Assembly: GCA_946557785.1 (NCBI GenBank)
Contig: CAMNTH010000011.1
Span: 1 to 64,000 of the forward strand
DNA: 64,000 nt
Direction: 5' to 3'
Source: an uncultured Blautia sp.
Lineage (GTDB): Bacteria; Bacillota; Clostridia; Lachnospirales; Lachnospiraceae
Both the position numbers and the translations under genes were made by a program. Shown here one piece after another: positions 101 through 12,565 of the stretch. How positions within the stretch are numbered: position 1 is the stretch's first letter; each line of letters opens with the position of its first letter. Under the pieces are notes generated by a model, which ran no database searches, had not been told where the DNA came from, and worked only from the letters and a program-made list of their open reading frames with translations.

Positions 101-129
101 TTGACCAAAATCAATGGGAATGTTATTCT
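101..129 (+). promoter_or_regulatory. Promoter for the ROK kinase gene
   Basis: TTGACC (101-106), a 17-bp spacer and TATTCT (124-129) make a sigma-A-like promoter about 40 bp ahead of the GTG start at 170. Read by eye. Confidence 0.5.
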
Positions 130-169
130 TTGGCTTACAAATAGAAAACGCAAGAAAAGGAGAACGGAT

Positions 170-1123
170 GTGAAGGTATTATTTGGGGTAGATATTGGAG
201 GAACACAGATTAAAATCGGGTGTTTTTCGGAAAAAGGAATATTATTGGACAAATGGGCAGTGGACACGGATCTTTCTGAAGGCGGAAGGCGGATCATTCC
301 TGCTGTTGCAGCGGAAATCAGAAGTTATGCGTCCGGGCATCAGATTTCTTTGAAGGAAGTTGCCGGAGTGGGAATGGGAATCCCGGGGCCTGTAGATGGT
401 GACGGATATGTAAAAGTCTGTGTGAATCTTCACTGGAGGGAATTCAATCCTGTTACAGAATTACAGAAAGAAATTCCCGGAATCTGTGCGGCAGCGGAGA
501 ATGACGCAAATTTGGCAGCCCTTGGGGAATACTACTGCGGAGCAGGCAAAGGCACTTCCAGTATGATGCTGGTGACTCTTGGAACCGGAGTTGGGGGAGG
601 AATCATAATCGGAGGAAATATTATCTCAGGAGCTCATGGGATTGCAGGTGAGATTGGACATATTACTACACACATTGAAGAGTATGAAAAGTGTAACTGC
701 GGAAACATAGGATGCGTTGATCAGTTTGCATCAGCCACAGGGATGGTTCGCATTATGAAAAAATTGCTTGGAAGCGGTGAGTTTGAATCGCCTTTGCTTG
801 CTAAGAATGATTTTTCAGCAAAGGATATTTCTGAATGTGCGGAAGATGGCGATCCGGCAGCAAAGAAATGTCTGGAAATCTGCATGGGTGCCCTGGGTGA
901 GGGACTTTCTGCATTTGCCCATGCTTTTGATCCGGAGCTTTATGTGATTGGCGGCGGGGTATCAAAGGCAGGCCGAATCATAATCGATGCCATAGAAAAG
1001 GAATATGAAAAACACTTTTTCCTGATTGAAAAAGGAGCAAAGATTACCCTTGCTGTACTTGGAAATGATGCAGGAATTATCGGAGGCAGTATCCTCGCTG
1101 CAAAGCAGGCAGGATTGGCTTAA
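170..1123 (+). CDS. ROK family sugar kinase
   Basis: Predicted cytoplasmic ATP-dependent sugar kinase of the ROK family (317 aa), which phosphorylates sugars such as glucose, GlcNAc or ManNAc at C6. The N-terminus carries the phosphate-binding motif DIGGT (D8-T12). GEIGH and the zinc motif CNCGNIGC lie near residues 160-185. The usual ROK pattern has Glu after GCx, whereas this protein has Asp (GCVDQ). A reading frame extends upstream to 101, but GTG at 170 is preferred: it has AAGGAG seven bases upstream and starts with the expected MKVLFGVDIGGT. The gene faces the AraC gene across a shared hairpin and is not in the transporter operon, but its position suggests it phosphorylates the sugar released by that locus. 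GlcNAc is a guess based on the NagB/glycosylasparaginase gene. Substrate cannot be read from sequence. Confidence 0.85.
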   Translation: MKVLFGVDIGGTQIKIGCFSEKGILLDKWAVDTDLSEGGRRIIPAVAAEIRSYASGHQISLKEVAGVGMGIPGPVDGDGYVKVCVNLHWREFNPVTELQKEIPGICAAAENDANLAALGEYYCGAGKGTSSMMLVTLGTGVGGGIIIGGNIISGAHGIAGEIGHITTHIEEYEKCNCGNIGCVDQFASATGMVRIMKKLLGSGEFESPLLAKNDFSAKDISECAEDGDPAAKKCLEICMGALGEGLSAFAHAFDPELYVIGGGVSKAGRIIIDAIEKEYEKHFFLIEKGAKITLAVLGNDAGIIGGSILAAKQAGLA

Positions 1124-1138
1124 TAGAAGTTAGATTGC

Positions 1139-1192
1139 AAAAAACACGGCCGGCTTATCCACAGATGGAATGATGTGGATAAGCCGGCCGTG
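1139..1192 (-). terminator. Terminator of the AraC gene (19-bp stem)
   Basis: A 19-bp perfect stem (1145-1163 with 1174-1192) is followed on the reverse strand by six T. It sits between the convergent ROK and AraC genes. Forward transcripts would also form the hairpin, but they lack a good U-run. Confidence 0.8.
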
Positions 1193-1203
1193 CTCTTGTA
1201 ATA

Positions 1204-2133
1204 TCATTTAGGGGGAAAAAGTGTAAAGGTCTGTCCTACCTGCGTATTGAGGTGATGTTTTTTATATTCTTTTGGAGTTAGACCTGTAATTTTCTTAAAT
1301 ACCCGATAAAAATGCTGAACATTATTAAAACCGGATTCCATACTGATTTCGATTATTGGCAGGTCTGTATTCAGTAAAAGCTGCTGTGCTTCCAGGATCC
1401 GCTTGCACTGCAGATAGTTAATAAGGGAAATTCCCATGGTTCTGTGGAAAATACGGCAGATATAGGATTTGTTCAAGTAAAATTCTTCTTCCAGGATTTC
1501 CAGGGTAATATTCTGATGATAATGTTCATTAATATACCGCAGAATCTGTGCCACAGGGTTAAGAGAGCGCTGCTCCTGGTTCACTCCAGGTCTCTTTTCT
1601 GAAATAAGATAAATCTCCTGGAGGATAATGGAAGCATAGAAGGAAATAAGCTCCCGGCTTTTATAGGACGGTTCCTGCCTGCACTCATGCATGTTTTGAA
1701 AAACCCGGTTTAAATGGATATATTCCTGGGCTGACAGAGAAAGCTGGTAGCAGCCGGAATTCTGGAAAAAATGAATTGCTTTCTTATAAAGAGCCGGGCC
1801 GAATGCATTTTCAATATGCTCATGTGTAAAGTAAAACACATAGCGGATATAATTGCATGGCTGCGGATAATTCAGCTTGTGAATTTTCCGGGGAGGAATC
1901 AGAAGTATATCGTGAGATTTCAGGCTATAGCTGGAATCGTCAAGATAAGCCTCCACATTGGCAGAAACATAAAACACGATTTCGTAACATTCATGATAAT
2001 GAATCAGTGAAGTGAGTTTCTCTGTGTTGGACGTAGTTTTGTAAAGTAAATTGAAATTTTCAACGCAATCGTGATAGGAATCATTGGAAGCCTGTAGGGA
2101 AGGCTGAATGTCTGGATTTATGTTTTTTCCCAT
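1204..2133 (-). CDS. AraC family transcriptional regulator
   Basis: DNA-binding regulator of 309 aa. Residues about 40-110 look like the cupin-type sugar-sensing domain of AraC proteins (HYHECYEIVFYV, then LIPPRKIHKL). The last 100 residues are the double helix-turn-helix, with INEHYHQNITLEILEE, SYICRIFH and the second-helix signature SGFNNVQHFYRVFKK. The ATG at 2133 has GGAG eight bases upstream. The gene diverges from the solute-binding protein gene across about 200 bp, the usual place for a regulator that activates the neighbouring uptake operon when its sugar is present. The ligand is unknown but is probably the transported oligosaccharide or a breakdown product. Confidence 0.9.
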   Translation of the reverse strand: MGKNINPDIQPSLQASNDSYHDCVENFNLLYKTTSNTEKLTSLIHYHECYEIVFYVSANVEAYLDDSSYSLKSHDILLIPPRKIHKLNYPQPCNYIRYVFYFTHEHIENAFGPALYKKAIHFFQNSGCYQLSLSAQEYIHLNRVFQNMHECRQEPSYKSRELISFYASIILQEIYLISEKRPGVNQEQRSLNPVAQILRYINEHYHQNITLEILEEEFYLNKSYICRIFHRTMGISLINYLQCKRILEAQQLLLNTDLPIIEISMESGFNNVQHFYRVFKKITGLTPKEYKKHHLNTQVGQTFTLFPPK

Positions 2134-2175
2134 TTTGAATTCTCCTCAAAAAATTTGATTGTCAGATATTCAATA

Positions 2176-2204
2176 ATTATCTAATAATTAATGCAATAAT
2201 ACAA
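2176..2204 (-). promoter_or_regulatory. Promoter of the AraC gene
   Basis: On the reverse strand TTGTAT (2199-2204), 17 bp and GATAAT (2176-2181) lie about 45 bp upstream of the start. The divergent operon has no comparable -35 box, which fits activation by the regulator. The AraC binding site itself could not be recognised in the A/T-rich gap. Confidence 0.4.
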
Positions 2205-2332
2205 TGGAAAAAGAAAATGGGGCAATATATGTTAGTTTAAAAGATTTCCAGCAAAATGCGTGAAGACGGGAATGGGAATAATGTTTATAATAAATATTGC
2301 AAAAACTTATAATATAGTAAGGAGGAAGAACT

Positions 2333-3997
2333 ATGAACAGACAGAAGAAATTAGCAGGAGTGATTGCTGGCTTGTGTACAATGAGTTTAATGGTGGGGAC
2401 CGTACAGGCTGCAGCAGTAAAACCTGAGCTTCCATTGGCGGAGCCGGGAACCGAAACTCTTACAGTTGCTACTATGGATAACTGGTTTGCAACAGCAAGT
2501 TATGCAGATAACCTGCCGATTTATCAGGAACTGGAGGAGATGACAGGGGTCAAGATTGAATGGGAAGTAATTCCGATTAATGATTATGACCAGGTAATGG
2601 GGACGAGACTGGCATCAGGACAGAATCTGCCGGACATTTTTATGATTCCATGGGAAGCAAATGCAGATCAGCTTGGATTTGACGGAATTGCCATGCCCCT
2701 TAACGATTTAATCGAGGAAAATGCATATTATCTGAATATGCTGATGGACAAATATCCGGTTATCCGTTCCGGTATTACAACATCAGATGGTAACATATAT
2801 TCTTATCCTGGATTTGGAGAAGGATATGTGAACAAAGCTGAAGAAATGGAAACAGGGGAACTTGTTGATCCGGGCGCAAACCTTTGTTTGAACGTGTCTA
2901 TGATTCGGAAAGACTGGCTGGATAAGCTGGGATTGGAAGTACCTGAGACATTGGATGACTGGTACAATGTATTAAAAGCATTTAAAACACAAGATCCGAA
3001 TGGAAACGGAAAAGCAGATGAGATTCCCATCACAAGTACTTTCAACATGAGAGATATCTACCGTTTCGGTGAAGCTTTCGGACTGTACCGTGCCGGTAAT
3101 GCAGAGTGCCGATGGGGCGTAGATGAAGAAGGAAAGATCTTCTTTAAAGATACAACAGAAGAATTCAGACAGACATTGGAATTTTTGAATAAGCTTTATG
3201 CAGAAGGCTTGCTGGATCCGGAATATGCAACTGCAGGATATGATAAAACAACAGAGAAGATTAACCGTGATCTTCTTGGCGCAGTAGCAAGTGACTGGAT
3301 GTCAAACATTGGTACTTATAATGCAAATTTGAAGACCGCCGGTGTTGAGGATGCAAATTGGGTTCCTGTAAAACCGATCTTAAATCCGGACGGTGAATCC
3401 AAGATCATGAACCGCTGGTCAGTATGGAAAACAGCAGCCATCTCCAAAGACTGCAAGAATCCGGAACTGGCTATGAAATGGCTGGATTTCCAATGCTTAT
3501 CTGCACAGGGTGTTGCATTGTCTAACTATGGAGTAGAAGGCGTCAGCTATACAAAAGGGGAGGACGGCATAATTGCTTTAACAGAAACAGCTACCAATAA
3601 TCCGGACGGAATCGGACCTCAGGAATATCTTCGCTCTTTAGGTGCGTGGGGTCAGCTTCCTTATCCTCAGGCAAAAGAAGGATACGAAGTACTTTGGGCA
3701 GACCAGTCTGGTATAGTAGAATTTGGACAGAGCTTTGCAGCAGACCAGGTACTGGATCCATTCCCGAATAATGGAACAAAGGCAAATCTGCCATTTACAG
3801 ATGAGGAAAACGACATCCGTTCTGAATTTGAAACAATCATTGAAACATACTGTGACGAGATGGCTATTAAGTTCATAGAAGGAAAAGAATCTTTAGATAA
3901 ATTTGATGAATATGTGGCAACTCTTGAGTCCTATGGTCTTGCAGAACTTTTGAAAATCCATCAGGCAGCATATGAAAGATTTTTAGGAGAATCATAA
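2333..3997 (+). CDS. Extracellular sugar-binding protein of an LplA-type ABC importer
   Basis: Secreted solute-binding protein of the large family-1 type (554 aa, typical of LplA/YtcQ proteins). The first 26 residues form a Sec signal peptide ending TVQA. The only nearby cysteine (GLC) is not a proper lipobox, so cleavage by signal peptidase I rather than lipidation is predicted, which is unusual for a Gram-positive binding protein. The start ATG follows TAAGGAGGAAGAACT. The body has family features such as the N-terminal strand TLTVATMDNW and DPNGNGKADEIPITS, which resembles a calcium loop. It delivers its ligand to the two permeases encoded next. The family binds complex plant or host oligosaccharides; the ligand here is unknown. 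Confidence 0.9.
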   Translation: MNRQKKLAGVIAGLCTMSLMVGTVQAAAVKPELPLAEPGTETLTVATMDNWFATASYADNLPIYQELEEMTGVKIEWEVIPINDYDQVMGTRLASGQNLPDIFMIPWEANADQLGFDGIAMPLNDLIEENAYYLNMLMDKYPVIRSGITTSDGNIYSYPGFGEGYVNKAEEMETGELVDPGANLCLNVSMIRKDWLDKLGLEVPETLDDWYNVLKAFKTQDPNGNGKADEIPITSTFNMRDIYRFGEAFGLYRAGNAECRWGVDEEGKIFFKDTTEEFRQTLEFLNKLYAEGLLDPEYATAGYDKTTEKINRDLLGAVASDWMSNIGTYNANLKTAGVEDANWVPVKPILNPDGESKIMNRWSVWKTAAISKDCKNPELAMKWLDFQCLSAQGVALSNYGVEGVSYTKGEDGIIALTETATNNPDGIGPQEYLRSLGAWGQLPYPQAKEGYEVLWADQSGIVEFGQSFAADQVLDPFPNNGTKANLPFTDEENDIRSEFETIIETYCDEMAIKFIEGKESLDKFDEYVATLESYGLAELLKIHQAAYERFLGES

Positions 3998-4017
3998 TCA
4001 ACAGCTTTGATTTTAAA

Positions 4018-4047
4018 CGGAAAGTATGGACAAATCCATACTTTCCG
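4018..4047 (+). other. Intercistronic hairpin between binding protein and permeases
   Basis: A perfect 13-bp stem (4018-4030 with 4035-4047) with loop CAAA lies 20 bp after the binding-protein stop. No clear U-run follows, so it is more likely an mRNA 3'-end stabiliser or weak attenuator than a full terminator. Confidence 0.7.
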
Positions 4048-4076
4048 GGTATTTTACAGAGAAAAGAGGAATGTAT

Positions 4077-5021
4077 ATGAAGAAAAAACAAAAATGTGCA
4101 TGCAGTATTCAAAAAACGCCTCTTCGAAAATTGATTTATAGGGACAGGCATCTGCTGGTTATGTGCATTCCCCTGATATTATTCTTTTTGATATTTGCAT
4201 ATTTACCAATGGCGGGTTTGTCTTTGGCTTTTGTAGATTATAAGCCTGTACTGGGAATTGGAGGATCTCCTTTTGTGGGATTGGAAAATTTCGAAAAGGT
4301 GTTCCGTAATCCATTTTTTCCAAGATTATTAAAAAATACATTTTTGATCGGAATGGAAACACTTGTGTGGAGCTTTCCAATACCTATTCTTTTTGCACTG
4401 GCTGTGAATGAAATCCGAAACAGAAAGTTCCAGAAAGTAATTCAGACCATCAGCTATATGCCATATTTTATCTCTATTGTGGTAATCGTGGGCTTGCTGT
4501 CCAACTTCCTTTCCCCTACGGTTGGCGTAATCAACCAGGTTTATTCTGCAATTACCGGAAATGATCCAATTAGCTTTATGACAGAACCGAAATATTTTCG
4601 AACGATATATGTTGTGAGCCATATCTGGCAGACCTTTGGCTGGAATTCTATTATCTATTTAGCTGCATTGGCAGGAGTGGATATTGCATTATATGAAAGT
4701 GCGAAGGTGGACGGTGCAAACCGATTGCAGCAGATGATCCACATCACACTTCCTTGTATCATGCCGACGATCATTATCATGCTGATCCTGAATATGGGAA
4801 ATATCATGAGCGTTGGATTTGAAAAAATTATTCTGATGTATTCACCGTCAACCTATGAGGTAGCGGATGTGATTTCAACATACACTTACAGACGCGGAAT
4901 CGTACAGTCGGATTATAGCTTTGGAACTGCGATCGGCCTTTTTAATTCCGCAATCAATATGATGTTTATTGTAGGTGCAAACTGGTTTAGCAAAAAATTC
5001 AGTGATACATCATTGTGGTAA
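4077..5021 (+). CDS. ABC sugar permease, LplB type
   Basis: Inner-membrane subunit (314 aa) of a carbohydrate importer (CUT1 class, LplB-like). Several hydrophobic segments are visible, starting at about residue 28 (MCIPLILFFLIFAYLP). The EAA loop that docks the ATPase is present as YESAKVDGANRLQQMI followed by HITLPCIMP. The frame is open from 4026, but ATG 4077 has AGAGG at the right distance, while ATG 4071 abuts the ribosome-binding site. It pairs with the next gene as a heterodimeric channel. No ATP-binding subunit is encoded anywhere in the locus, so a shared MsmX-type ATPase encoded elsewhere must power it, as known for LplABC-type systems. Confidence 0.9.
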   Translation: MKKKQKCACSIQKTPLRKLIYRDRHLLVMCIPLILFFLIFAYLPMAGLSLAFVDYKPVLGIGGSPFVGLENFEKVFRNPFFPRLLKNTFLIGMETLVWSFPIPILFALAVNEIRNRKFQKVIQTISYMPYFISIVVIVGLLSNFLSPTVGVINQVYSAITGNDPISFMTEPKYFRTIYVVSHIWQTFGWNSIIYLAALAGVDIALYESAKVDGANRLQQMIHITLPCIMPTIIIMLILNMGNIMSVGFEKIILMYSPSTYEVADVISTYTYRRGIVQSDYSFGTAIGLFNSAINMMFIVGANWFSKKFSDTSLW

Positions 5022-5032
5022 AGGAGGAAAAG

Positions 5033-5923
5033 ATGAAGAGAAAAACAAAGCAAAGCTTTAGTGACAGAATGTATATGATCATCGTATGTATCTTTGTGAT
5101 CATCTGTACCTTTATTGCACTGTATCCCATGGTTTATACCTTAAGCATGTCAATCAGCGGAGCGGAGCATGTGGCAAAAAATGATATATTCTTTTTCCCC
5201 AAGGGATTTTCTACTCAGGCATATGAACTTGTTTTTCAGGATAAAGAGATCTGGGGAGCATACATGAATACCATTTGGTACACAGTGGTGGGAACGGTTT
5301 TGAGCGTGGTGCTGACTATGATATCTGCATATCCCTTATCACGCAGGAGATTTTTCCTCAGAAGAAAGCTGATGTTATTCGTAATGTTTACCATGTATTT
5401 CAGCGGCGGACTGATCCCTATGTTTCTTCTGATAAATAAGATCGGCCTTTACAACAGCAGATGGTCATGTATTATGCCATATCTTATCAGTGCGTGGAAC
5501 CTGATCGTGTGCAAGAGTTTTCTGGAAAGCATTCCGGAGACATTGGAAGAGGCGGCGGCTATTGACGGAGCGTCTCCTTATACCACTTTTGCAAGGATTT
5601 TCCTGCCGTTGTCCAAACCGATTATTGCAGTTATGACGCTGTATTACGCTGTAGGACAATGGAATGGTTACTTTGCTGCAATGATGTATTTGCCTGATGC
5701 AGATAAACATCCTATTCAGATGTATTTAAGAAAGATTCTAATTCTGTCAAATACCCAGTCTTCCATGGGGGGATCTTCCATGGGAGGATTTGAGAGGAGT
5801 TTGGCTACACAGCAGTTAAAATATGCCGTGATCATTGTTACGATTCTTCCGATCCTTGCCATTTACCCCTTTGTACAGAAATATTTTGTAAAGGGTGTTA
5901 TGATAGGATCTATTAAGGAGTAG
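5033..5923 (+). CDS. ABC sugar permease, LplC/YtcP type
   Basis: Second membrane subunit of the importer (296 aa, MalG-like). It has an N-terminal membrane segment (MIIVCIFVIICTFIALYPM), the EAA loop LEEAAAIDGASPYTTFARIF followed by LPLSKPI, and the terminal KYFVKGVMIGSIKE typical of LplC/YtcP proteins. An in-frame TTG exists at 5015, but ATG 5033 follows AAAGGAGG and leaves an 11-bp gap to the previous stop, so it is preferred. It acts with the LplB-type partner and the secreted binding protein. Confidence 0.9.
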   Translation: MKRKTKQSFSDRMYMIIVCIFVIICTFIALYPMVYTLSMSISGAEHVAKNDIFFFPKGFSTQAYELVFQDKEIWGAYMNTIWYTVVGTVLSVVLTMISAYPLSRRRFFLRRKLMLFVMFTMYFSGGLIPMFLLINKIGLYNSRWSCIMPYLISAWNLIVCKSFLESIPETLEEAAAIDGASPYTTFARIFLPLSKPIIAVMTLYYAVGQWNGYFAAMMYLPDADKHPIQMYLRKILILSNTQSSMGGSSMGGFERSLATQQLKYAVIIVTILPILAIYPFVQKYFVKGVMIGSIKE

Positions 5924-5933
5924 GAGGCTGGAG

Positions 5934-7004
5934 ATGAGATACTATACTACACAGGAACATTTTGAACAAATTTTCGCAGATACCTTCCGAAGCCACGAAT
6001 TTCATGCTAAAACACAAGAAGAATATCATATTTGGAGCAGGGCTTTCAGAGAAAAGCTCCATGAGCTCTTGGGAACAAACCAGATGCACACCTGCCCTGC
6101 AGATCCAAAGATTCTGGAAAGCATCCAGTGTGACGGGTATGTTCGGAAAAAAATGCTGATCCACACGGAGAAGGATGTTATCATGCCATTTTACATGCTG
6201 ATCCCAAACGGACTGAGGGAAGGGGAAAAAAGAAGCGCGGTAATTGCCTGCCACGGGCATTCCAGCAACGGCAAAGAATCCGTAGCAGGTGTACGCAGGA
6301 TAAAAGCCATTTCCCAGACAATAGATCACTATGATTATAATTACGGGGAAGTTTTTGCTCAAAAAGGATATATCGTATTTGCTCCGGATGCCAGAGGCTT
6401 CGGAGAGCGAAGAGAACGATATGACCATGGAACAGAGTCTGAAAGGCTGCTTTCTTCTTCCTGTTCTTATCTCCATGTAATGGCAGTGTCTCTGGGACAG
6501 ACAGTTATGGGAATGTGGCTGTGGGATCTGATGCGCCTTGCAGATTTTGCATTATCCTGTGACTGCGTGAATGGTCATATTGGCTGTGCAGGGCTGTCCG
6601 GAGGGGGGATGCAGTCTCTGTGGCTTGCCGCTATGGATACAAGAATGGAATGCAGCATAGTCAGCGGTTATTTTTATGGTTATCTTCAGTCCCTGCTGAT
6701 CAATTATAATTGTCTGTGCAACTATGTTCCGGATCTTTGGAAGGTAGCGGATATCGGTGACATTGGAGCACTGATTTGTCCAAGACCGGTATTGATCGAA
6801 ACAGGAAACCAGGATGACCTGAATGGAAAAGACGGCCTTGACAATGTATATCCCCAGGTGGAAACCGTCAGAAAAGCCATGGGATTGTTTGATGCGCAGC
6901 AGAACCTGTATCATGATGTTTTTGAAGGCGAGCATAAGTGGAATGGAAAAAAGGCATTTGACTGGATGATATCTCATATGCCGCCTGTGGAGGAAAACAG
7001 ATGA
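5934..7004 (+). CDS. Cytoplasmic alpha/beta hydrolase, acetyl-esterase-like
   Basis: Predicted serine hydrolase of 356 aa without signal peptide. The oxyanion region is IACHGHSSNGKES and the nucleophile elbow is GLSGGGMQS with S222. D294 or D295 (GNQDDLNG) and H334 (EHKWNG) complete a plausible triad. Overall it resembles the esterase/dienelactone-hydrolase-like group that includes Abhydrolase_7 and acetyl-xylan-esterase relatives. It is in the operon, 10 bp after the permease stop, and its stop overlaps the next start (ATGA). A role in removing an acetyl or other ester group from the imported sugar is likely by context. A deacetylase acting on an N-acetyl group cannot be excluded but is not typical of the fold. 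Confidence 0.7.
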   Translation: MRYYTTQEHFEQIFADTFRSHEFHAKTQEEYHIWSRAFREKLHELLGTNQMHTCPADPKILESIQCDGYVRKKMLIHTEKDVIMPFYMLIPNGLREGEKRSAVIACHGHSSNGKESVAGVRRIKAISQTIDHYDYNYGEVFAQKGYIVFAPDARGFGERRERYDHGTESERLLSSSCSYLHVMAVSLGQTVMGMWLWDLMRLADFALSCDCVNGHIGCAGLSGGGMQSLWLAAMDTRMECSIVSGYFYGYLQSLLINYNCLCNYVPDLWKVADIGDIGALICPRPVLIETGNQDDLNGKDGLDNVYPQVETVRKAMGLFDAQQNLYHDVFEGEHKWNGKKAFDWMISHMPPVEENR

Positions 7005-8140
7005 CATCTAAGGAAAGAGTTTTAAAGATGATCCGGCATGAAGAGCCGGACCGTGTGCCTGTGGGAGAATGGGGCATTGACCATGACCATGTTTCAAAGA
7101 TCCTAGGCAAACATACTTACTGGAGAAACAGAAAAGATACTACCCTTGCCCTTTGGGATAATCGGCGGGATGAAGTTGTGGAAAGCATGAAAGAGGACTA
7201 CAGTGCCCTGATTGAAAAATTGGACTATGATATTGTAACCGTGGAGCTGGTGCCGCCTAAAAGCCATCATGTGGAAAAAAAGCCAAAAGAAATCGCACCA
7301 GGTGTATGGGAGGATGAAAAAGGTGGAATCTGGAAATATGCAGCCAGCAATGATTCCATTATGTATGTTTCCAAAAGAGAGGGAAAGGAAGAGCTTACAG
7401 ATGAGGACGTACAGCGTGCAATAGAAAAGTGGAGCAATATAGATGAATCCAGATTTGAGCTGATTGATTACTGCTGTGATAAATTCGGCAAAGACCGTGC
7501 GATTCTTTGCAGGGATGTAAATATTTATACGCCGCTGTTTGAAGCATTTGAAGGAGATTTTGATTCTGATCTTATGCGTACGCTGCTTTGTCCTGAGGAA
7601 ATAGAGAAGCTTCGCCCTGCCTGTTATGCATATAATCAAAAGCTGATTGAGCATTGCAAAAAAAAGGGCGTCACTATTATGATGCAGGGCCAGGATTTTG
7701 GGATGAGCACAGGCTGTATGTATAATCCTGAGAGTATCCGTGATATTTTTATGCCGGTTATGACCAAGGTAAATAAAGACATTACGGATGCAGGAATGAT
7801 ACCATTTTATCACTGCTGCGGAAGAATCTGGGATATTATGGATGACTTTGTTAAGGCAGGCTATAAAGGCTACCAGTCCATACAGGAAAGCGTAGGGATG
7901 GATAATAAGACCGTAAAAGAAAAATATGGAGATGTTTTAACCTTATGGACGGGTGTGCAGTGTGAAACTTTGGTGGAAGGAAGCCGTGAACAGGTGGAAA
8001 AAGAAGTACTGAGAAATTTGGAGCTTTTGATGCCGGGTGGGGGATACCTGTTCGGATCCACCAATTCCGTACAGTTTGGTGCAAAGACAGACAATTATCT
8101 TCGAGCACTGGAGCTGGTGAGAGAAAAAGGCGTTTATTAG
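7001..8140 (+). CDS. URO-D/MtaA-superfamily protein of a sugar operon
   Basis: A 379-aa protein of the uroporphyrinogen decarboxylase fold (N-terminal signature HEEPDRVPVGEW). This superfamily includes true HemE and the cobamide methyltransferases MtaA and CmuA. It is not HemE by context: no heme genes are near. H271-x-C273 (YHCCGR) matches the position of the His-x-Cys zinc site of MtaA-type enzymes, and C321 might be a third ligand, though it is closer than in MtaA. The start overlaps the preceding stop by four bases, so the two genes are coupled. URO-D-like genes recur in Clostridial carbohydrate operons without known function. Demethylation of a methylated sugar is one idea, but no corrinoid protein is encoded here. 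Confidence 0.7.
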   Translation: MTSKERVLKMIRHEEPDRVPVGEWGIDHDHVSKILGKHTYWRNRKDTTLALWDNRRDEVVESMKEDYSALIEKLDYDIVTVELVPPKSHHVEKKPKEIAPGVWEDEKGGIWKYAASNDSIMYVSKREGKEELTDEDVQRAIEKWSNIDESRFELIDYCCDKFGKDRAILCRDVNIYTPLFEAFEGDFDSDLMRTLLCPEEIEKLRPACYAYNQKLIEHCKKKGVTIMMQGQDFGMSTGCMYNPESIRDIFMPVMTKVNKDITDAGMIPFYHCCGRIWDIMDDFVKAGYKGYQSIQESVGMDNKTVKEKYGDVLTLWTGVQCETLVEGSREQVEKEVLRNLELLMPGGGYLFGSTNSVQFGAKTDNYLRALELVREKGVY

Positions 8141-8150
8141 GGAGGAGATT

Positions 8151-9539
8151 ATGAATATCTGGGATAACAAAGCAGAAGATGTACGAATTACATATATTGG
8201 AGGCGGATCCAGGGGATGGGCATGGAATTTAATGAGCGATTTGGCCATGGAAGACCAGATGAGCGGAGTTGTAACGCTTTATGATATTGACCTTGAGGCT
8301 GCAAAAAAGAATGTGGTTATTGGAAATGAGTATCAGAAGATAAGCAAAAGTCAGGGTTTTACCTACCGTGCCTGTACTGATTTAAGGGAAGCGCTTGTGG
8401 GTGCTGATTTCGTAGTGATTTCTATTTTGCCTGGGTCTTTTGATGAGATGGAGTCAGATGTGCATTGTCCGGAAAAATATGGAATTTACCAGTCTGTAGG
8501 TGATACAACAGGTCCAGGCGGAATTTTCCGTGCGCTTCGTACACTGCCTATGTATGTGGAGATTGCCGAAGCGATCCGTGATGTTGCTCCAAAGGCATGG
8601 GTTATTAATTACACCAATCCGATGGCAGCCTGTGTAAGGATTTTATATGAAGTATTCCCGGAAGTGAAAGCATTCGGATGCTGCCATGAGGTATTTGGAA
8701 CCCAGGATTTATTGGCAAGACTGGCAGAAAAGGAATTTGGCGTTGAAAAGATCCGGCGCAGTGAGATTAAGGTAAATGTACAGGGGCTGAACCATTTTAC
8801 CTGGTTGTCAGAAGCTGCATATGAGGGGCAGGATCTGTTTCCGTTATACGAAAAGGCAGCAGAACAGTATAAAGATGGGATTGAGCTTGACGCAGGAAAG
8901 AACTGGATGAACAATCATTTTGCCAGTGCAAACTGTGTGAAATTTGATCTGTTCCGCAGATACGGCGTGATCGCTGCAGCAGGAGACCGTCATCTGGCAG
9001 AATTCTGTCCGGGATGGTATCTGAAAACTCCTGAAACGGCGCACAGCTATAAATTTGCCCTGACGCCTGTAAGCTGGAGAAAAGAAAAACTGAATGAGCT
9101 TTTAGAAACCAGCAGAAGGCGTGTATCTGGTGAAGAACCTGTAAAGATTCAGCCCTCTGGTGAAGAAGGTGTAAAACAGATGAAAGCCATTCTGGGTCTG
9201 GGAGATTTTGTCACAAATGTAAATATGCCAAACAAAGGGCAGATCAGCAATGTTGAAAACGGCGTTGTGGTGGAGACAAACGCTGTATTTTCTAAGAACA
9301 GCGTAAAACCGGTTTTTTCCGGAGAAATGGATAAACATGTTCTGAACTTGACACAGCCCCATATTTACAGTCAGAATGCAGTCATCCAGTCATGTCTGAC
9401 AGGTAAGCTCAAACCTGCATTCCTGGCTTTTATACATGATCCCCAGGTAAATCTTTCAATAGAAGATGCGGGAAAACTGTTTGGAGAGATGGTGGAAAAC
9501 ACAAAAGATTACTTGAAAGGGTATGATCTGAATTGGTAG
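8151..9539 (+). CDS. GH4 glycosidase, LplD-like (alpha-galacturonidase subgroup?)
   Basis: NAD- and Mn-dependent glycoside hydrolase of family 4 (462 aa), cytoplasmic. The Rossmann motif is YIGGGSRGW (residues 15-23). SVGDTTGPGG (115-124), NYTNPM (153-158), GCCHEVFG with C178, and LNHFTW with H215 give the expected cofactor and metal sites (Cys and His as Mn ligands). GH4 enzymes oxidise C3 of the substrate and eliminate the aglycone. SILPGSFDEM and GIYQSVGDT look more like B. subtilis LplD, an alpha-galacturonidase also encoded in an lplABCD cluster, than like 6-phospho-glucosidases. That subgroup call rests on memory of the family. It lies 10 bp after the URO-D-like gene. Confidence 0.85.
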   Translation: MNIWDNKAEDVRITYIGGGSRGWAWNLMSDLAMEDQMSGVVTLYDIDLEAAKKNVVIGNEYQKISKSQGFTYRACTDLREALVGADFVVISILPGSFDEMESDVHCPEKYGIYQSVGDTTGPGGIFRALRTLPMYVEIAEAIRDVAPKAWVINYTNPMAACVRILYEVFPEVKAFGCCHEVFGTQDLLARLAEKEFGVEKIRRSEIKVNVQGLNHFTWLSEAAYEGQDLFPLYEKAAEQYKDGIELDAGKNWMNNHFASANCVKFDLFRRYGVIAAAGDRHLAEFCPGWYLKTPETAHSYKFALTPVSWRKEKLNELLETSRRRVSGEEPVKIQPSGEEGVKQMKAILGLGDFVTNVNMPNKGQISNVENGVVVETNAVFSKNSVKPVFSGEMDKHVLNLTQPHIYSQNAVIQSCLTGKLKPAFLAFIHDPQVNLSIEDAGKLFGEMVENTKDYLKGYDLNW

Positions 9540-9565
9540 ATTAAGGGGCACAGGGAGGATGGACA

Positions 9566-11227
9566 ATGAGAATTATTGAAACGGAAGATTACCAGGAAAT
9601 GTCACAGGTGCTTTTGCAGATTTTTGAAAAGCAGATTCAGGATAAGCCGGACAGCGTATTATCTTTTACTACAGGAAAAACGCCGGAAGCTTTTCTGTGC
9701 AGGCTTGCGGATGCGGTAAATGATGGCCTGGACATCAGCAGCAGCGTGTTTTTGAATCTGGATGAGTATGTGGGAAAAAGGGATATGCCCTATAGCGTAT
9801 ATTCTTTTATGAAAACCTGCTTATATGACAGGATCCAGATGAAGCCGCGGGTAGTTGAAATGATGAATGCTGAGGCACAGAATCAGGAAGAAGAATTGAA
9901 ACGGTACAGTGAAGTCCTGAAAAAATATCCCAGGGATATTCAGCTTCTGGGGCTTGGCACAAATGGCCATATTGGAGCGAATGAACCGGGAACGCCTTTT
10001 GATTCCACATTATTTGTTGCAGACAGCTTTGATTCTACCATTGAGGCGACCCAGAAGCTATTCCATTTAAATAAGGAAGAAACTCCTACGCAGATGTTTA
10101 CAATGGGCTTTCAGGAAATCATGGCGGCAGGACACGTGATCCTTGCTGCAGCCGGAAAAAGTAAGGCAAAAGCCGTGAAAGCCCTGGTGGAAGGTGAAAT
10201 TACCACGGATGTTCCAGCTTCCATCCTTAGAACACATGAAAATTGTACCCTGATTATTGATAAAGAGGCTGCTTCCCTTCTGCAGCAGGAAAGATGGAAT
10301 TTTCTGTCCACATGGAAAATGTCAGAAGGGGGAATCGAAGATGCCATCAAGGCATTTATGGAGACAAAAGACATTCATTGCGCAATTACCAAAGGGGTAA
10401 AAGCAGTAGAGGACAGGGAAGAATACCATTCTGTTGGATATGGGGGACTTCCCAATATTTATGGAGATGTAGAATTAGATGCAGCGTATATGAATGGGGA
10501 TACGCTGAAGGCCGGTGGAATCATGGCTGTACGCAATGTGAAAAACCCTATAGAGGTTGCCAAAAAACTTAGCACCTATGACCGAAATAATTTCCTTGCA
10601 GGAGAGGGGGCTATGAAGTTTGCTGCTTCAAAGGGATTTGCTTTTTCCAATATGCTTTCTGATACAGCGAAGAATCGCTTTGGGGAAGCAATGAAGGAGA
10701 AGGGCGGTTTTACGGCGCAGGAGGCTTATGACGGCCATGACACGGTATGTATGATCGGACGTGATCCGAAGGGATCCATGGGGTGTGGTGTTTCTACATC
10801 AGGGCTGTTTTTAAAGCATCCCGGCAGAGTAGGGGATAGCCCGGTAATCGGTTCCGGATTTTATGCGGACTCCCAGATTGGTGCTGCGGCAGCTACAGGT
10901 GTAGGAGAAGATATTATGAGAGGCTGTTTGTCTTTTGCTATTGTGGAGAAAATGGCAGAAGGCTATTCTGCACAAAAGGCATGTGAGGTGGTTCTGAAAA
11001 GGCATTTGGAACGCCTGCGTAAAAAAGATGGAAAATGCGGAAGCATGTCCGTGATTGCCATGGACAGAAATGGAGCCGTTGGGGCGGCTACCAGTCTTAC
11101 AGCCTTTCCATTTGTTGTGGGTAATACAAAAGGGGATATAAAGGTATTGGTTGTTCATCCTGAGGATGAAGGCATGTACTTATTTGAGCCGGATGAACAA
11201 TGGTGGAAGAAGTATCAGGGGGATTGA
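9566..11227 (+). CDS. Fusion: NagB-like sugar-phosphate deaminase + glycosylasparaginase
   Basis: Two-domain enzyme of 553 aa. Residues 1-245 are a glucosamine-6-phosphate deaminase/isomerase domain: phosphate-site TTGKTP (35-40), NLDEYVG (64-70), and GLGTNGHIGANEPG with H135 and E140. Residues 247-553 are an N-terminal-nucleophile hydrolase of the glycosylasparaginase type: STW with W250, autoprocessing site D392-T393 in GHDTVCMIG, GRVGDSP (R421, D424) and AAATGVGED (T444, G445). All residues known to bind the asparagine glycan in that family appear to be present. Known activities are GlcNAc-Asn to GlcNAc, ammonia and aspartate, and GlcN-6-P to Fru-6-P plus ammonia. If autoproteolysis occurs, the NagB part stays on the alpha chain. 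It is the last gene of the operon. Confidence 0.85.
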   Translation: MRIIETEDYQEMSQVLLQIFEKQIQDKPDSVLSFTTGKTPEAFLCRLADAVNDGLDISSSVFLNLDEYVGKRDMPYSVYSFMKTCLYDRIQMKPRVVEMMNAEAQNQEEELKRYSEVLKKYPRDIQLLGLGTNGHIGANEPGTPFDSTLFVADSFDSTIEATQKLFHLNKEETPTQMFTMGFQEIMAAGHVILAAAGKSKAKAVKALVEGEITTDVPASILRTHENCTLIIDKEAASLLQQERWNFLSTWKMSEGGIEDAIKAFMETKDIHCAITKGVKAVEDREEYHSVGYGGLPNIYGDVELDAAYMNGDTLKAGGIMAVRNVKNPIEVAKKLSTYDRNNFLAGEGAMKFAASKGFAFSNMLSDTAKNRFGEAMKEKGGFTAQEAYDGHDTVCMIGRDPKGSMGCGVSTSGLFLKHPGRVGDSPVIGSGFYADSQIGAAAATGVGEDIMRGCLSFAIVEKMAEGYSAQKACEVVLKRHLERLRKKDGKCGSMSVIAMDRNGAVGAATSLTAFPFVVGNTKGDIKVLVVHPEDEGMYLFEPDEQWWKKYQGD

Positions 11228-11248
11228 GATTATTCCCGCGTGAAAGAG

Positions 11249-11295
11249 GAGAGCTGCACAGCCTGTATGGAGGGGCGTGCAGTTCTTTTGCATTT
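11249..11295 (+). terminator. Probable terminator of the sugar operon
   Basis: An 11-bp stem with G-U pairs (11249-11259 with 11277-11287) is followed by a short T-rich tail. The stem includes some of the T residues, so strength is uncertain. Confidence 0.5.
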
Positions 11296-11414
11296 CGGAA
11301 TTATGAAACGGACATTTTTGCTAATTGTGTCTTCAACACACGGACGTTTGTGCATTGTCACAAGAAACAAAGGAGATAAACAAAGAAAAATTAGTAAAAG
11401 TATACAAAATATGG

Positions 11415-11443
11415 TTGCGCAATATTTAGAGTGATGGTATAAT
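11415..11443 (+). promoter_or_regulatory. Promoter of tdh-kbl
   Basis: TTGCGC (11415-11420), 17 bp, then an extended -10 TGGTATAAT ending at 11443. This gives a leader of about 50 nt with no riboswitch-like structure. Confidence 0.7.
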
Positions 11444-11503
11444 GCAGACATAAAAGACTGTTCCTTGTGAATATAAACGGAGAAATCTCAGGAGGAAAAA
11501 TAC

Positions 11504-12565
11504 GTGAGCGAAAAAAATGATGGATTAATGTGGGCTTTGGTGAAGGAGAAGCCAGAGGAAGGGTTATGGATGAAACGAGTTCCAATTCCCAAGGTAGGAC
11601 CAAATGATGTAAAGATCAAGATTCGTAAAACTGCAATCTGCGGAACAGATGTACATATTTATCAGTGGAATGATTGGGCACAGCATACCATTCCTGTAGG
11701 TTTGACTGCAGGACATGAATATGTAGGGGAAGTTGCTGAGGTTGGCGCAGGCGTACAGGGCTTTAAGGTGGGGGACCTTGTATCAGGAGAAGGCCATATT
11801 ACCTGCGGGAAATGCAGGAACTGTCTGGAAGGCCACAAGGAAAACTGTAAGGATGCCAAGGGAGTGGGCGTAAACAGAAATGGAGCTTTTGCAGAATACC
11901 TGGTAATTCCATCTTCCAATGTCTGGCCATGTAATCCGAACATACCAGAAGAAATGTATGCTATTTTTGATCCCTTTGGCAATGCAACCCATACAGCACT
12001 TTCTTATGATATGCTGGGTGAGGACGTTCTCATTGCAGGGGCAGGCCCTATTGGATGTATGGCGGCTGCCATTGCCAAATTTTCCGGAGCAAGACACGTG
12101 GTAGTTACAGATATGAATCCATACCGTCTGGATTTGGCCCAGAAGCTTGGGGCAACCAGAACGGTAAATCTGAAGGAGGAAAAGCTTCCGGAGGTTATGA
12201 GGAAGATCGGAATGACTGAGGGCTTTGACGTAGGTCTTGAAATGTCCGGTTCCCAGGCTGCACTTCATGAAATGATCCATAACATGAAGCACGGCGGAAA
12301 GATTGCTCTTCTGGGACTGCAGAGAACGGATGCGAAGGTGGATCTGGAGACAGTAATCTTTAACGGACTGAACCTGCGGGGGATTTATGGAAGAAAGGTG
12401 TGGGATACCTGGTACAAAATGTCTACCATGCTGCAGGCAGGACTGGATATTTCCCCGATCATTACACACCATTTTGATATCCGGGATTACGAGAAGGGAT
12501 TCGAAGCCATGATTTCCGGAATGTCAGGAAAGGTGATTCTGGATTGGTCCCATGTGAATGACTGA
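11504..12565 (+). CDS. tdh: L-threonine 3-dehydrogenase
   Basis: Zinc-dependent medium-chain dehydrogenase (353 aa) that oxidises threonine to 2-amino-3-ketobutyrate with NAD. Catalytic zinc region [11 protein letters not shown] and GHEYVGEV, structural zinc loop [15 protein letters not shown], and Rossmann motif [11 protein letters not shown] are all present. [13 protein letters not shown] near the C-terminus is typical of Tdh rather than of sorbitol dehydrogenases. Translation starts at GTG 11504 after CAGGAGG. The unstable product is handed to the 2-amino-3-ketobutyrate ligase encoded 34 bp downstream, so the pair forms the threonine-to-glycine pathway. Confidence 0.93.

Follow-up and report, generated by a model that had tools for sequence, protein, structure and literature searches.

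Why would a bacterium carry a domain of the NagB sugar-phosphate deaminase type and a glycosylasparaginase (AGA) on a single polypeptide? The question is raised by one gene in a stretch of 64,000 nucleotides from an uncultured Blautia sp. (Lachnospiraceae; assembly GCA_946557785.1, contig CAMNTH010000011.1, positions 1 to 64,000), hereafter the window. At 9566-11227 of the forward strand a single intact frame encodes 553 residues, of which 1-242 have a NagB fold (this domain is termed NagB2, a label coined in this analysis) and 247-553 form a complete AGA, with no linker between them. This confirms the two-domain polypeptide reported in a preliminary description made from the sequence alone, which also knew of no characterised protein of this design; our literature searches, whose scope left most subscription papers outside, likewise gave no paper on a NagB-AGA fusion. 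The answer that we favour, with modest confidence, is that the gene would encode a cytoplasmic bifunctional enzyme derived by fusion of adjacent genes of one catabolic unit, NagB2 acting on the sugar half of the substrate.

The search for this architecture across genomes that the preliminary description had proposed found the same design elsewhere. Genome contigs were surveyed with a five-sequence alignment of relatives; among the best 80 of 502 relatives, which were kept, NagB2 stands directly upstream of AGA at ten loci; because of this selection, the counts of pairs and fusions are lower bounds. Two loci from other species, L031 (Blautia sp. S10_Bin4, same record as G024) and L032 (Limivivens), carry the fusion as one frame, with 69% identity to the window protein, while at eight a stop codon parts NagB2 from AGA (L033, L034, L035, L037, L040, L042, L058 and L085). 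Two of these eight are in Enterobacteriaceae (L058, Citrobacter; L085, Atlantibacter), and L034 and L040 are nearly identical in sequence. At the unfused loci it is 24-59 nt from the NagB2 stop to the closest AGA start codon, except in the two enterobacteria, where they overlap. Outside the count of ten stand L038, with a separate NagB2 tail at a contig end, and L039, where a NagB2-like C-terminal remnant (4255-4419) directly upstream of an intact AGA points to a probable loss of NagB2 in that lineage. At genus level the fusion is present in 2 of 64 genomes, the window's own included. No plasmid record covered 80% of the fusion, phage records gave NagB-like matches only, all below 60% identity, and E. 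coli genomes gave no DNA match to the Citrobacter stretch comprising the phosphotransferase system (PTS) gene, NagB2 and AGA.

An assembly or annotation artefact might be suspected, since the window assembly consists of 47 contigs and unfused pairs exist. The probability of a frameshift or chimera is nevertheless negligible, and this explanation was rejected, as L031 and L032 are fused in frame in the same way and the window offers no alternative AGA start: with ATG, GTG and TTG absent in frame from residue 228 to W250, its AGA half relies on the start of the fused gene. In the matching stretch a single in-frame start-type codon is present in L031 (TTG) and in L032 (GTG). A vestigial NagB domain is not favoured either, given a low pN (nonsynonymous divergence) and conserved catalytic residues; the ratio dN/dS was not relied on because synonymous sites are at or near saturation.

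The C-terminal half has an N-terminal-nucleophile (Ntn) hydrolase fold with a D-T autoproteolysis site. W250, R421, D424, T444 and G445, which we take to be substrate-binding residues of glycosylasparaginase, are present in the window protein and kept in 83 of 83 rows, so that the preliminary claim of a complete enzyme with all listed residues in place stands. A plain asparaginase or isoaspartyl peptidase, as the shared Ntn-hydrolase superfamily and matches to isoaspartyl peptidases might suggest, is improbable. The purified AsnA2 of Lactobacillus casei BL23 ran as two chains and was shown to hydrolyse N-acetylglucosaminyl-asparagine (GlcNAc-Asn), with an activity of 20.9 umol per mg per min (PMC6960285); by kinship with it, the AGA half should cleave itself and then act on GlcNAc-Asn. 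Lacticaseibacillus relatives L076, L083 and L088 are 44-45% identical to the AGA half. No signal peptide was seen in a by-eye check of the fused protein.

The N-terminal half, taken in the preliminary description for NagB proper, proved to be something else. It scores 178.9 bits on the curated nagB profile (TIGR00502 equivalog; cut-off 236.9), 115.7 bits on AgaI (galactosamine-6-phosphate isomerase, PRK09762; cut-off 271) and 69 bits on 6-phosphogluconolactonase (TIGR01198; cut-off 124.45), short of the threshold each time, and the nagB profile gives 152.6-185.5 bits to the 11 NagB2 proteins from the genome search. A profile of 12 NagB2 proteins gives its own members 305-424 bits (leave-one-out) and 20 canonical rows, one a fragment, at most 216, and NagB2 forms a clade of its own in the NagB tree (support 100/99, branch 1.27). 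D66, N133, H135, E140 and K200 are kept in 12 of 12 NagB2, and position 39 is T or S (T39 in the window); the Streptococcus mutans equivalents are D62, N128, H130, E135, K194 and T38. In contrast, S. mutans R159, F133 and N157 are replaced in 12/12 NagB2 and kept in 20/20 canonical rows, 18 of which were chosen by a motif filter that permits F or A at 133, as well as in two enterobacterial NagB. The lid Arg becomes K, N, D, E or M, Phe133 becomes Ala and Asn157 becomes Thr (K164, A138 and T162 in the window). Simulations of S. mutans NagB make K194, T38 and S37 phosphate contacts and R159 a lid gatekeeper (PMC8369159). With catalytic residues kept and pocket and lid changed, the chemistry is therefore probably retained and the substrate probably different or bound differently.

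A missing lid Arg does not single out NagB2 and was rejected as its distinguishing mark, since three other divergent NagB paralogues (L130, L133 and L134) are also without it; the combination of Ala at 133 and Thr at 157 was seen in NagB2 only and is missing from these three. One of them lies beside a GH4-like gene in Citrobacter (L130:4655-6703) and another beside a GH1-like gene in a Murimonas genome (L134:98-2220), both neighbours assigned by eye; specialisation to a single glycoside operon may be frequent among NagB-like proteins.

NagB2 is uncommon and closely tied to AGA. Profile searches at E 1e-75, a threshold set to exclude canonical NagB at which remoter NagB2 would be missed, found it in 3 of 397 family genomes, each time beside or fused to AGA although the search was not conditioned on AGA, and in one of 391 genomes of a class sample, the window's own. 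AGA itself is present in 11/397 family genomes (E 1e-60). The sole exception met is a Listeria monocytogenes protein (WP_009925505.1; L113:6001-6732 of NZ_LR134400.1), annotated as glucosamine-6-phosphate (GlcN6P) deaminase, which belongs to the NagB2 clade and shares its diagnostic residues and 43.8% identity, but adjoins a Cof-type HAD hydrolase, and the genes up to 6 kb away include no AGA. Its role could show what NagB2 does outside AGA loci; a literature search under a presumed locus tag found nothing on this gene.

The preliminary description had further proposed that the first and last steps of N-glycan stub breakdown sit on one protein. This is not supported: the kinase and NagA steps lie between them, and neither enzyme is in the protein. 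Nor was a whole N-acetylglucosamine (GlcNAc) pathway seen in one locus. The 80 AGA loci, 52 of them at least 20 kb long and 28 shorter, were searched by tblastn (E 1e-10) with seeds for NagA (two), NagB (three) and ROK (a single divergent one); only the ten NagB2 positions matched, which serve as a positive control for the NagB seeds but not for those of NagA and ROK, and NagA had no match at any of the 80 loci. Elsewhere in the 11 genomes with AGA-linked NagB2, canonical NagB exceeds its cut-off in ten and NagA in all 11; in the window genome, canonical nagB and nagA lie at other sites.

The phylogenies of the two halves are consistent with a single fusion of a NagB2-AGA pair. They comprise 84 rows for AGA and 36 for NagB; left out were L003 (the genome's 28% NagB-like protein, which failed the motif filter), L125 (the same as L037), L018 (a fragment, not in the NagB tree) and L117 (same genome as L037, failing a row filter). 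All NagB2-linked rows of the AGA tree fall within one clade of 30 (100/95), where the three fused rows belong to a set of five (98/94); the other two are one sequence twice (L036 = G629), an AGA without NagB2 that keeps the junction letters RWN. The NagB tree unites the three fused rows (99/96), and both trees pair L033 with L037 as sisters. The simplest history that we infer would start from an old NagB2-AGA pair that fused once, in Lachnospiraceae, with NagB2 being lost several times.

How the two activities might be connected can be proposed as follows. The substrate would enter in the window through the ABC (ATP-binding cassette) transporter of the same operon, and at five of the eight unfused loci possibly through a PTS encoded upstream instead. 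The C-terminal AGA would cleave itself between D392 and T393, leaving NagB2 in the alpha chain; the NagB-containing alpha chain predicted in the preliminary description is supported by the sequence to this extent. Thr393 would then hydrolyse GlcNAc-Asn, or a closely related compound, at the amide bond to aspartate and a 1-amino sugar (glycosylamine), which would decay to sugar and ammonia, and NagB2 would deaminate or isomerise a 2-amino sugar or its 6-phosphate in a pocket unlike that of GlcN6P deaminase. A pathway-specific sugar-amine deaminase/isomerase is the most likely role of NagB2, because it has its own clade and a changed pocket and lid, canonical NagB is encoded elsewhere, and NagA is unmatched at the 80 loci. 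Several points weigh against this proposal. The shared loss of the lid Arg in other paralogues is one, and the predicted structure of the fused protein (pTM 0.68) leaves the relative domain orientation uncertain. Several close relatives of the AGA half have no NagB2 next to them (L036/G629, L041, L043, L045 and L046; L039 has the remnant), and AGA therefore does not need it. L031 and L032 have a relative of the AraC-family regulator beside the fusion and lack the rest of the operon, the transporter included, and the trees conflict within the fused trio, AGA joining L031 with L032 (99/88) and NagB2 joining the window with L031 (98/85). Finally, a plain GlcN6P deaminase would be redundant because of the NagB and NagA encoded elsewhere; this same redundancy, together with the lack of a NagA match beside NagB2, supplies the strongest argument for a pathway-specific role, an indirect one.

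Among the candidate reactions, a 2-amino-sugar (phosphate) deaminase/isomerase ranks first, GlcN6P deamination second and glycosylamine handling third. NagB2 as an ordinary GlcN6P deaminase, with GlcNAc freed by AGA being phosphorylated, deacetylated by NagA encoded elsewhere and deaminated by the NagB domain, draws on the NagB fold, the retained catalytic Asp, Asn, His and Glu and phosphate-binding Lys and Thr, closest solved structures that are GlcN6P deaminases, and the NagA in the genome; it is nonetheless doubtful in view of the sub-threshold profile score, the separate clade, the three residues replaced throughout, and the canonical NagB that accompanies NagB2 in most genomes while NagA goes unmatched at the AGA loci. 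It is rather unlikely that NagB2 acts on the direct AGA product, opening the 1-amino sugar ring, in free or 6-phosphate form, to yield sugar and ammonia: all 12 NagB2 retain the Asp that in NagB presumably handles the C2 proton, which is what an isomerase would be expected to do, no precedent was found, and the hydrolysis may need no enzyme. The step from 1-amino-GlcNAc to GlcNAc and ammonium is treated as non-enzymatic in the paper on AsnA2 (PMC6960285). NagB2 as a deglycase, releasing the amino acid of a 2-N-linked glucosamine-6-phosphate adduct while AGA works on the amino-acid side, would parallel NagB chemistry and could receive its 6-phosphate through PTS import at the five unfused loci. 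According to the same paper (PMC6960285), however, the alpha-amino group of Asn must be free for AGA to act; such adducts lack it, and this possibility is very improbable.

The pathway-specific deaminase/isomerase proposed here would belong to a sugar-uptake locus (Table 1). The fused gene is the last of an apparent operon with intergenic gaps of -7 to 28 nt (ORF tables), and genes scanned around it (101-12565) gave ROK, AraC, ABC, Abhydrolase_7, URO-D, GH4 and Tdh; the LplB-like and YtcP-like labels of the two permeases are our assumption. Murimonas L037 has the same ABC-GH4 operon, its transporter and enzyme genes 72-86% identical, with NagB2 and AGA unfused. At L034, L035, L040, L058 and L085 a MalX-like PTS IIBC lies upstream instead; three such proteins scanned score under the curated cut-offs of whole-length PTS families. 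The URO-D/MtaA-like gene, conserved in L037 and present as a fragment in L033, is an observation apart in a sugar-uptake operon. A 13-pair inverted repeat with a 4-nt loop (4018-4047) between the solute-binding protein and first permease genes possibly tempers downstream expression. No promoter is claimed because matches are near shuffled expectation (27 vs 23.4).

Table 1. Features of the fused gene and its apparent operon in the window.
Feature	Position	Strand	Evidence or remark
AraC-family regulator, divergent from operon	1204..2133	-	relative beside fused gene in L031, L032; heads L037 operon
ABC transporter solute-binding protein	2333..3997	+	PF01547; L037 copy 82% identical
ABC permease (LplB-like)	4026..5021	+	PF00528; L037 copy 82%
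ABC permease (YtcP-like)	5015..5923	+	PF00528; L037 copy 86%
Abhydrolase_7 protein	5934..7004	+	PF12715; L037 copy 73%
URO-D/MtaA-like protein	7001..8140	+	PF01208; L037 copy 78%, L033 fragment 84%
GH4 glycosidase	8151..9539	+	PF02056, PF11975; L037 copy 72%
NagB-like domain (NagB2), residues 1-242	9566..10291	+	
Junction, residues 243-246 (RWNF)	10292..10303	+	no linker; ATG, GTG and TTG absent in frame over residues 228-250
Glycosylasparaginase domain, residues 247-553, and stop codon	10304..11227	+	
D392-T393 codons, predicted autoproteolysis site and nucleophile	10739..10744	+	aligns with glycosylasparaginase D-T site; identical in 83/83 relatives
Terminator-like stem and T-rich tail 3' of fused gene	11263..11282	+	consensus match only

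Other AGA loci follow different plans. Among the best 80 of 502, an M20-type dipeptidase occurs at 32, a lactose/cellobiose-type EIIC at 28 and a GrdB-like protein at 22, in comparison with 0/10, one (L035, about 4 kb off) and 0/10 at the ten NagB2 loci. In L029 (6275-9874), and in similar stretches of L077, L086, L089, L095-L097, L099, L101, L106 and L108-L110, a standalone AGA is clustered with a lactose/cellobiose-type PTS, an M20 peptidase and a 173-aa GrdB-like protein (PF07355), often also with YitT and MupG; the GrdB-like protein recurs in such clusters without evident role in GlcNAc-Asn use. The M20/PTS type resembles the enterococcal ega locus, an annotated example being found in E. 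raffinosus; the title of Combret et al. 2024 ties its AGA to GlcNAc-Asn use (via PMC11160706). Like the window, the ega locus joins AGA to a dedicated sugar transporter, but it is described as having a lactose/cellobiose-type PTS, a dipeptidase and an oxidoreductase-like gene, with no NagB mentioned (PMC11160706), whereas the window has an ABC transporter, GH4 and NagB2 and falls outside the ega type (AGA with lactose/cellobiose-type PTS and M20-type dipeptidase). AsnA2 of the L. casei BL23 alf-2 cluster is likewise an intracellular AGA with the same cleavage-site Thr, but is standalone (about 36 kDa) in a cluster described as comprising an MFS (major facilitator superfamily) permease, fucosidase, M20 peptidase and ROK kinase (PMC6960285), and 'nagb' is absent from the main text of that paper. 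The Elizabethkingia (Flavobacterium) meningoseptica enzyme (1p4k), 32% identical to the AGA half over the structural alignment, has no NagB domain, while the monomeric Bacillus subtilis NagB (2bkv) and the S. mutans enzyme (2ri0/2ri1) are unfused and differ from NagB2 at the lid Arg, active-site Phe and lid Asn. Downstream of the NagB2-less AGA of L036 (10025-17633), genes like those of an oligopeptide ABC transporter (by eye) suggest possible import of glycosylated peptides or amino acids.

The NagB2-AGA fusion is thus a variant of known enzyme kinds, and the interpretation given in the preliminary description is partly supported. What makes it interesting is less the fusion by itself than the recurring gene pair and an uncommon NagB subfamily, the partner of which gives a clue to its function. 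The locus type, of which our literature searches found no description and which occurs here in two Enterobacteriaceae as well as in gut Lachnospiraceae, points to a further bacterial way of using glycosyl-asparagine besides alf-2 and ega. Should NagB2 handle the glycosylamine, the breakdown of glycosylasparagine has a missing enzyme, and a step assumed spontaneous would gain its own, paired and later fused with the enzyme that supplies the substrate; should it instead deaminate another substrate, asparagine may carry a sugar other than plain GlcNAc. The pair hints at a dedicated pathway for feeding on the sugar stubs left when glycoproteins are digested.
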